Part shown: positions 5,508-8,434 of the stretch, piece after piece
How the letters are laid out: each line of letters starts with the position of its first letter
Numbering within the stretch: position 1 is the stretch's first letter
Source of the DNA: Lachnospiraceae bacterium
Lineage (GTDB): Bacteria; Bacillota; Clostridia; Lachnospirales; Lachnospiraceae
Direction: 5' to 3'
DNA length: 42,818 nt
Assembly (NCBI GenBank): GCA_029226225.1
Contig: JAQXXU010000040.1
Location: 1 to 42,818 of the forward strand
The notes under the pieces: generated by a model
Databases searched by the model: none
Seen by the model: only the letters and a program-made list of their open reading frames with translations
What the model was told of the DNA's origin: nothing
Program-made: the position numbers and the translations under genes

Positions 5508-6422
5508 ATGATAGATAAGTTAGAAAGAAAACTCGGGAAGTACGCTATCCCGCGCCTGATGAACTATTTCATCGGTGGATACGTGATAGGATACATCCTT
5601 TATGCTATACAGGCGGTAACGGGTGCGCAGATACTCTCGTTGATGGAGCTGGAGCCGTACTATATCTGCCACGGACAGATCTGGAGGCTCATCACCTGGG
5701 TCATGATCCCGCCTGACCAGAATATCATATTTGCGATCATCATGATCATTTTCTACTGGCAGCTTGGAACCGCGCTCGAGAGAGTCTGGGGTACCTTCCG
5801 GTTTAATGTCTACATGTTCGGCGGAGTGCTGTTTACGCTGATAGGTGCATTTGCGCTCTATGTAGTCGGAGGACTCGTCAGTGGACACTGGAATTATATC
5901 GGGCTTGGCAGCTATTTTTCCACCAACTACATAAACTTAAGTATATTCCTGGCATTCGCGCTGACCTTCCCGGAGGAGCAGGTGCTTCTGTACTTCTTCA
6001 TCCCTGTAAAAATGAAGTGGATGGCAGTTCTCTATGCCGTATTCTTACTGATCGACATCGTAAATGCTTTGAGCGCCGGAACAGCCGGAATCCCGTTAGT
6101 AGTTGCCATAGCAGCTTCACTTCTGAACTTCCTGATCTACTACCTGCAGACAAGGAACTGGAAGAATCCACGGCAGACGAAGCGACAGCGTGACTTCCGT
6201 CGCGCATATGATCACACATCATGGCATTCGTACACAGGCGGACAACAGAGCCAGCCGCATGACCGCACTGCCAGGAGCAAACAGGTCGCAAAGCACAAGT
6301 GCTGCATCTGCGGCCGTACCGAACTTACCAACCCGGAGCTCGACTTCCGTTACTGCACGAAGTGCAACGGCAACTACGAGTACTGCAGTGACCATCTGTT
6401 CACTCACACACATGTAAAGTGA
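5508..6422 (+). CDS. Rhomboid-like multi-pass membrane protein with C-terminal zinc-ribbon-like tail
   Basis: Hydrophobic segments; HGQIWRLITWVMIPP and RVWGTFRFNVYMFGG resemble rhomboid-like proteins; Cys-rich tail CCICGRTELTNPELDFRYCTKCNGNYEYCSDH. Confidence 0.7.
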   Translation: MIDKLERKLGKYAIPRLMNYFIGGYVIGYILYAIQAVTGAQILSLMELEPYYICHGQIWRLITWVMIPPDQNIIFAIIMIIFYWQLGTALERVWGTFRFNVYMFGGVLFTLIGAFALYVVGGLVSGHWNYIGLGSYFSTNYINLSIFLAFALTFPEEQVLLYFFIPVKMKWMAVLYAVFLLIDIVNALSAGTAGIPLVVAIAASLLNFLIYYLQTRNWKNPRQTKRQRDFRRAYDHTSWHSYTGGQQSQPHDRTARSKQVAKHKCCICGRTELTNPELDFRYCTKCNGNYEYCSDHLFTHTHVK

Positions 6423-6567
6423 GCTGTACGGGCGTCCGGCCACATAAGCGACAGTAAATCCATCTGGGTCCTTCGCGATATCTATGTCGACGCCCGATGG
6501 AATATCGAAACTCACAGTCCAGAGTCATACTTTTTTTGTGTGATGCAAGGACTTTTCAATAACCCAA

Positions 6568-6601
6568 GTCACACCTTGAGAAAGCTTTTCTTTGGTGTGA
6601 C
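6568..6601. repeat. Inverted repeat GTCACACC-N18-GGTGTGAC
   Basis: GTCACACC (6568-6575) and GGTGTGAC (6594-6601), loop contains palindromic AGAAAGCTTTTCT. Confidence 0.6.
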
Positions 6602-6617
6602 ACAGGATTCTAAAAAA

Positions 6618-6760
6618 GGGTATGGTTGGCACACAGGTATGGACGAGGGGACCTTATGAGACGCCGGTGTTTGGGCTGCGTATTTTGCAGCCCTATGCAC
6701 CGCTGCGTCTCATACGGAGCGAGAGCGGGCCCCGAGCCGTACCTGTGTGCCAACCTACCC
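6618..6760 (+). promoter_or_regulatory. Highly structured RNA leader upstream of glnS (candidate cis-regulatory RNA)
   Basis: GGGTA-t-GGTTGGCACACAGGTA (6618-6639) pairs with TACCTGTGTGCCAACC-TACCC (6740-6760); GGGG 6647-6650/CCCC 6730-6733; TATGAGACGC 6655-6664/GCGTCTCATA 6705-6714; CGGTG 6665-6669/CACCG 6698-6702; GGGCTGC 6673-6679/GCAGCCC 6687-6693. Confidence 0.6.
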
Positions 6761-6787
6761 GTCTACAGAAAACACAGGAGGCACATC

Positions 6788-8434
6788 TTGAAAAATTTTA
6801 TCGAAGAAGAAATAGATAAGGATCTGGCCAGCGGCCGTTACGACCACGTAGTAACGCGATTCCCGCCGGAACCAAACGGATTTTTACATATAGGACACGC
6901 AAAGAGCATCCTTTTGAACTATGGTCTCGCCCAGGAATACAACGGCGAGTTCCACATGAGATTTGACGACACGAACCCTACAAAGGAGAAGTCAGAGTTC
7001 GTAGACGCCATCCAGGAGGATATCCGCTGGCTTGGCGCAAAGTGGGAGAAGACGATGTACGCATCCGACTACTTTGACCAGATGTATGAGCTGGCAGTAA
7101 AGCTGATAAAAAAGGGCAAGGCATACGCTTCAGACCTTACAGCAGACCAGATCAGAGAGTACCGTGGAACACTTACAGAACCAGGCAAACAGGATCCGAA
7201 TTCAGACAGACCGATAGAGGAATCTCTTCAGATTTTTTCAGATATGAAGGCAGGGAAGTACGCAGATGGTGAAATGGTACTGCGTGCGAAGATAGATATG
7301 TCATCGCCGAATATCAACATGCGAGACCCTATCATCTACAGAGTAGCCCATCTCTCACATCAGAGACAGGGAGACAAGTGGTGCATCTACCCGATGTATG
7401 ATTTTGCTCATCCTATCGAGGACGCTATAGAGGGAGTTACCCACTCCATCTGTACTCTCGAGTTTGAGGATCACAGACCGCTCTATGACTGGGTAGTCCG
7501 TGAGTGCGAGTTCCCTGATCCACCGAGACAGATAGAGTTTGCTAAGCTCTACCTCAAGAATGTCGTCACAGGAAAGCGCTACATCAAAAAGCTCGTAGAG
7601 GATGGCATAGTAGACGGGTGGGATGACCCGAGGCTTGTATCTATAGCTGGACTCCGTCGCAGGGGTTACACACCTGAATCCATAAAGAAATTCGTAGAGC
7701 TTGCCGGTGTCAGCAAGGCAAACTCGACAGCAGAGTATCCGATGCTTGAGTACTGCATCAGAGAAGACTTAAAGACAAAGGTTCCTCGCGTCATGGCAGT
7801 TCTTGACCCGATAGAGCTCGTGATAGATAACTACCCTGAAGGACAGTCAGAAAAGCTTCCGGTAGTAAATAACGTCGAGAATGAGGCACTTGGAAGCCGT
7901 GAGGTTAATTTTTCAAAGCATCTGTATATAGAGAGAAGCGACTTCATGGAAGTGCCGGTAAAGAAGTATTTCCGTATGTTCCCGGGGAACGAAGTCAGAC
8001 TCATGAATGCCTATTTCGTGACCTGTACCGGGGTCGACAAAGATGAAAATGGTGATATAATAAGAGTACATGCTATTTACGATCCGGCTTCAAAGGGCGG
8101 TAATTCTCCTGATGGAAGAAAAGTCAAGGGAACTATCCACTGGGTCGATCAGGCAACAGCATTTAAGGCCCCTGTCAGACTCTATGAGAATGTCATAGAT
8201 GAAGAGAAAGGTGTCTATAACGAAGACGGCAGCCTGAACTTAAATCCTCATTCGCTGACCGTAAAGGATGCCTACATCGAGGCATCGGTAAAGGATGCAA
8301 AGCCGTATGACAGCTTCCAGTTTGTAAGAAACGGATTTTTTACAACGGACAGCAAGGACTCTAAGGAAGGCGAGCCAGTGTTTAACAGGATAGTTTCGCT
8401 GAAGAGTTCGTTTAAGTTACCGGCATCCAAATAA
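6788..8434 (+). CDS. glnS: Glutaminyl-tRNA synthetase
   Basis: [40 protein letters not shown] matches GlnRS. Start corrected to TTG 6788 with AGGAGG at 6776-6781; the ORF-track start at 6626 is inside the hairpin. Confidence 0.93.

Follow-up and report, generated by a model that had tools for sequence, protein, structure and literature searches.

The structured hairpin upstream of glnS very probably belongs to a mobile (MITE-like) family of intergenic stem-loop repeats, non-autonomous and about 145 nt long, that is spread through the Lachnospiraceae; its effect on glnS would be exerted post-transcriptionally. The best reading is of a new family of mobile stem-loop repeats, ERIC- or NEMIS-like in kind and under unusually strict structural constraint, and not of a leader class belonging to glnS. 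Across genomes the repeat is dispersed and patchily present, its structure is constrained, and in one relative it carries a signature of transposition. The window, which is the whole stretch of 42,818 nucleotides analysed from one Lachnospiraceae genome (G000), holds the following features at and around glnS.

6430 to 6495 (approximate limits), minus strand: decayed and reversed copy of the repeat, outer arms kept and core lost, recognised by sequence comparison
6568 to 6601, plus strand: GTCACACC...GGTGTGAC, a small hairpin in the interval that separates the two copies, with counterparts in G008 and G001
6618 to 6764, plus strand: complete structured copy of the repeat, matching positions 1-144 of covariance model R1 (129.4 bits, E = 3.0e-36)
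6618 to 6643, plus strand: 5' arm of P1, the hypervariable outer stem, pairing with 6736-6760
6644 to 6748, plus strand: conserved core with P2, a three-way junction, the long arm P3 with its conserved internal loop, the apical loop GUNUUU and a GNRA-capped mini-hairpin, from BLAST coverage and consensus
6718 to 6727, plus strand: mini-hairpin GC-GAGA-GC with a GNRA-type loop, loops being read by pattern
6736 to 6760, plus strand: 3' arm of P1, from the minimum free energy (MFE) fold, the 19-copy consensus and covariation
6776 to 6781, plus strand: AGGAGG ribosome binding site (RBS) of glnS, outside the hairpin
6788 to 8434, plus strand: glnS, glutaminyl-tRNA synthetase, with a TTG start at 6788 (Pfam PF00749, PF03950 and PF20974)

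The sequence-only reading had described an outer stem, an internal loop, a GGGG/CCCC pairing, three stacked helices in a second arm and the GC-GAGA-GC element, and a check of the sequence finds the stems in place, with all of these parts present both in the MFE fold and in the consensus of 19 copies. Folding of 6600-6790 gives -108.3 kcal/mol, whereas dinucleotide-shuffled sequences average -61.3 +/- 4.3 (z = -10.9), and none of the 200 shuffled sequences was as stable. The AGGAGG does lie about 15 nt 3' of the element end, and the earlier remark that no U-tract follows is upheld, there being no terminator-like site 3' of the hairpin. Equally, no T-box or glutamine riboswitch core had been recognised, and across the whole window every Rfam family stays below its gathering score; the best sub-threshold match, to U3 snoRNA (25 bits with a cut-off of 34), is regarded as chance. 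A T-box leader was rejected on the lack of both a match to the Rfam T-box model and a terminator, and a glutamine riboswitch or other Rfam class on the lack of a covariance model match above the gathering score. The counterparts of the small 6568-6601 hairpin in G008 and G001 differ in sequence and still look paired. The gene 5' of glnS (5508-6422) encodes a membrane protein that is rhomboid-like by eye and gives no Pfam match at E 0.001, and a truncated copy of the repeat elsewhere in G000 (L025, C85:13753-13889) adjoins sequence like the 3' end of that gene, perhaps as a duplication or as a contig of a close relative in the incomplete G000 assembly.

When the window's own genome is searched by BLAST with 6610-6770, 29 matches are returned, including the palindrome's own complement and several short fragments, and these span the core and mostly end in the outer stem. 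A covariance model built from 19 copies scores at least 22 copies of this genome at more than 100 bits, and also picks up weaker and partly decayed ones. They adjoin glnS, cmk, lysC, pstB, parC, purH, serS, rpsJ, leuS, prfA, hslO and others (names read from the protein sequences, with only GlnS confirmed by Pfam), and occur in both orientations relative to the neighbouring genes. Two copies, the one before glnS in G001 (L133) and one at C8:3464-3605 in G000 (L050), contain an extra branched insert of about 90 nt, the further arms of which repeat the conserved CUURG...UAYG internal-loop motif, as if the arms were modular.

Copy number across 13 genomes of the genus is patchy, at 26, 4, 0, 27, 0, 16, 0, 12, 3, 12, 0, 0 and 1. 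The gap upstream of glnS holds the element in G000, G008, G001 (there together with a further, nested hairpin), G005 and G007, one half of it in G009, and a divergent reversed subtype in G003. Just a short gap without the element lies 5' of glnS in G002, G004, G006, G010, G011 and G012 (six of the 13 genus genomes, and six of the 12 sister species). The idea of a new regulatory RNA of an aminoacyl-tRNA synthetase, with a constant placement before glnS as its hallmark, is not supported by this: because copies occur at many unrelated loci and relatives lack the element at this position, it is not a glnS-specific leader. Since the decayed reversed copy accompanies that at 6618-6764, the glnS locus is seen as a divergent pair; G009 retains the right half of the reversed copy at the position matching 6430-6495, and close pairs of copies are almost always divergent. 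The glnS copy would have reached this gap in a common ancestor of some of the genus genomes, most likely as half of a divergent pair, and have been retained since. G009 also lacks copies at parC, hslO and cmk, and because remnants of the outer arms persist at its parC and hslO sites the absence there looks like loss. Turnover is uneven between G000 and G009: at pstB the two genomes have identical copies, and after valS 18 of the 47 pairs differ, most of them with pairing intact (L031/L063 and L040/L080).

Beyond the genus, a covariance model search of one genome per genus finds the repeat in at least 109 of 299 Lachnospiraceae genomes, a lower bound because only ten candidates were scored per genome, and the highest copy number is 82 (G582). 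Within a phylum sample of 399 genomes the carriers are four of the same family and one of another family, and this last genome (G974) has five copies (L215, L219, L223, L227 and L231), which suggests horizontal transfer or misbinned contigs. Among the matches listed for a pattern describing one subtype, the named carriers are nearly all Lachnospiraceae, and from this the family sampled above is taken to be the Lachnospiraceae. Cultured organisms with copies include Anaerobium acetethylicum, Mobilitalea sibirica and Butyrivibrio sp. NC3005. Two viral contigs match such a one-subtype pattern. With one copy as query no match was found among the PLSDB plasmids. The literature searched holds no description of such a Lachnospiraceae repeat; the supplementary model lists of PMC8040213, a possible source, lay outside that search.

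The transposition signature comes from G178, where the hairpin lies in the middle of an element of 260 bp that is bounded by terminal inverted repeats (GGTGTCAAAAGCCCTTA). In each of the seven copies examined there, the longest direct repeat in the flanks measures 8-9 bp, with a mean of 8.4; mismatched flanks give a mean of 4.3. In G049 two divergent hairpins sit between the inverted ends of a unit of about 500 bp, G582 has near-identical copies in different surroundings, and tandem copies are seen in G122. Within the window's genus no target-site duplication rises above chance (4.92 against 4.94 expected) and the termini are not conserved, the outer arms being inverted but free in sequence, and so mobility there rests on dispersal and patchiness; the copies of this genus have probably been in place for a long time, or else spread by a different route. 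Movement would need an enzyme supplied in trans. No transposase with the G178 terminal repeats and no parent transposon with the same ends was found among 12 terminal-repeat regions of one genome inspected; MITEs need not all have an autonomous parent. Beside the copies there is no recurring mobility protein, and no transposase or reverse transcriptase was seen by eye in the flanking DNA, where the largest recurrent ORF cluster is of ABC ATPase-type proteins (31 loci), followed by transporters and other ordinary proteins. Y1 transposases were found neither in G000 (26 copies) nor in G009 (12 copies), assemblies that are 83% and 90% complete, and a REP/RAYT system was rejected since Y1 transposases do not track the element. 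A MITE-like insertion had been the second suggestion made from the sequence, and this is largely supported by the dispersed copies, the patchy copy number and, in one relative, the target-site duplications and terminal inverted repeats; the copies are non-coding and small (100-200 bp, about 500 at most), and pairing of their 5' and 3' ends makes the long stem-loop. What goes beyond a plain MITE is that all pairs covary and that the outer stem is hypervariable yet paired.

Compensatory changes, proposed earlier as something to check for, are present at every one of the 47 pairs as two-sided changes across 105 copies. Of all cells 95.6% are paired, and the covariation score is 0.849 as against 0.216 when shuffled and at most 0.13 when slid, figures from an alignment fitted to the structure being tested, which favours that structure. 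The architecture is fixed: the outer stem is variable, and with it go a three-way junction, a long arm whose internal loop is conserved, and the GNRA mini-hairpin. The sequence of P1 differs in almost every copy and its pairing is kept in 92-97% of cells, and the mini-hairpin loop is GNRA in 96 of the 103 loops read (GAGA 49, GAAA 22, GGGA 14, GCAA 6, GCGA 4, GGAA 1). A tandem GA/GA internal loop in every copy was considered and dropped, since only about half of the copies have one. Where species share a site, 50 changes are two-sided and keep the pair and 20 are one-sided, with some comparisons reusing a sequence. Slow compensation would predict less concerted change than this, for which palindrome-templated mutation, gene conversion or copy replacement could be responsible. 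Such constraint at shared sites exceeds what an inert insertion would need, and together with the sense bias seen in the genus it counts against the reading as a mobile repeat.

The balance of G-U and A-C differs between the stems. In P1 and P2, G-U outnumbers A-C by 94 to 15 (22 to 6 in an ungapped recount of part of P1), which suggests that it is one particular strand that folds; the ratio is 22 to 5 among copies that are antisense to the genes on both sides, where a recently moved antisense copy could have inherited the bias from a sense parent. The long arm has no strand preference, with about 21 G-U and about 28 A-C (summed without the two end pairs), and its pairs alternate between U-A and C-G with almost no G-U. 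Quite unlikely, on balance, is the alternative that these features invite, namely that a structure-specific recombinase or transposase recognises the hairpin in single-stranded DNA, much as integron attC sites are recognised. On that account only the shape and a few extrahelical bases would matter, so that stems could drift while staying paired, which suits an outer stem that is hypervariable but paired, bulges and internal loops that are conserved, and a strand preference independent of gene orientation; a long arm lacking both G-U intermediates and strand preference is easier to explain for DNA than for RNA. In DNA, too, GC-GNNA-GC makes a mini-hairpin of very high stability, a further point in favour. 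In attC sites the stem sequence is free, structure and extrahelical bases are conserved and one strand is preferred, all of which the repeat shares, but its conserved part is the apical core and not the base of the stem. Against recognition as single-stranded DNA, the analysis gave no candidate recombinase, two genomes rich in the element have no Y1 transposase, and the target duplications indicate a cut-and-paste transposase for the G178 version.

Gene context bears on a second alternative, that of a cis-regulatory leader RNA (a riboswitch or a protein-binding RNA) for a housekeeping regulon that includes glnS. By crude ORF calls on the context set A3 of 105 copies, the repeat is sense to both flanking genes in 55 cases and antisense to both in 25, the rest being mixed or open, and for many copies the 3' end lies near a gene, either a gene start or a gene end. 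A leader would fit the genus sample without G003, where sense copies number 33 and antisense copies 6 (orthologous copies included) and often lie 2-40 nt before a gene start, and it would fit the glnS copy being common to five genomes, the excess of G-U over A-C in P1 and P2, and the GNRA loops of the mini-hairpin. Outside that part of the genus the sense bias is gone (14:10 and 8:9), and the copies antisense to both neighbours, close relatives without the element at the same genes, the tandem and nested copies, the want of a shared pathway and the lack of a terminator or RBS switch at glnS all speak against it. Promoter-like sequence, judged by eye, follows the copies before leuS and rpsJ, and so the element is not in the leader there. 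T-box and glutamine riboswitches are likewise structured RNAs before an aminoacyl-tRNA synthetase or a glutamine-related gene, but the repeat has no Rfam match and has copies before unrelated genes and in antisense. A regulon leader is accordingly judged improbable. An independent multi-copy small RNA gene family, which the strong fold, the covariation and a strand preference independent of neighbouring genes might recall, is highly improbable given little promoter enrichment 5' of the copies, no terminator after the glnS copy, and many copies that leave only 10-40 nt to both neighbouring ORFs. Promoters occur 5' of 3 of the 105 copies as against about 1% in shuffles, which does not exceed the other strand or the 3' side, and a promoter of the element's own was rejected on that basis. 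Orientation relative to replication looks mixed, by eye, along the near-complete genome G190.

For the mobile repeat at glnS, the element is likely to be transcribed together with glnS, and its main effect on the gene would be post-transcriptional, through processing or stability of that segment of the mRNA as with ERIC and NEMIS, rather than through sensing of a ligand or tRNA. Because the likely transcript includes an outer stem of more than 20 bp, lacks a terminator and leaves the RBS free 15 nt 3' of the element, the hairpin would be read through, and would be cut or act protectively, influencing glnS modestly at most. Small mobile repeats of similar size do act on co-transcribed genes via RNase III or RNase E: the transcript of NEMIS/Correia elements of Neisseria forms a long stem-loop cut by RNase III, and ERIC can expose an RNase E site and so alter mRNA stability according to orientation (PMC2229807, PMC10969869). 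Compared by description, ERIC/IRU (127-bp enterobacterial repeats) are likewise non-coding, intergenic, co-transcribed stem-loops of variable copy number with tens of copies; they have a consensus sequence and TA termini and belong to a different phylum, whereas the outer stem of the Lachnospiraceae repeat is nearly free and only its pairing is kept. Correia elements are also small repeats with a long stem-loop, but have 24-bp terminal inverted repeats and a target duplication, and conserved ends and duplications are found only in the G178 version of the repeat and not in the window's genus. REP/BIME sequences with their RAYT (Y1) proteins share the palindromic, intergenic character and the frequent inverted pairs, but REPs are of 20-40 bp (PMC3733652) and the repeat is about 145 nt with a three-way junction and does not co-occur with Y1 transposases.

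A tentative and rather doubtful extension of the mobile repeat reading is that of a clade-specific family in which the folded strand, as RNA or as single-stranded DNA, would be the functional unit. The core would be recognised by a host or element protein, the outer stem would be selected for pairing only, and the core may have been picked up by different Lachnospiraceae transposon backbones. The strand preference raises the question of what recognises the repeat, and the fast and concerted evolution of its stems makes it a test bed for distinguishing selection on RNA structure from palindrome-templated mutation. A structured repeat that reaches 82 copies per genome and is present in at least one third of sampled Lachnospiraceae genomes has no Rfam match, and wherever it stands before a gene, as at glnS, it will be misread as a synthetase leader or a riboswitch.
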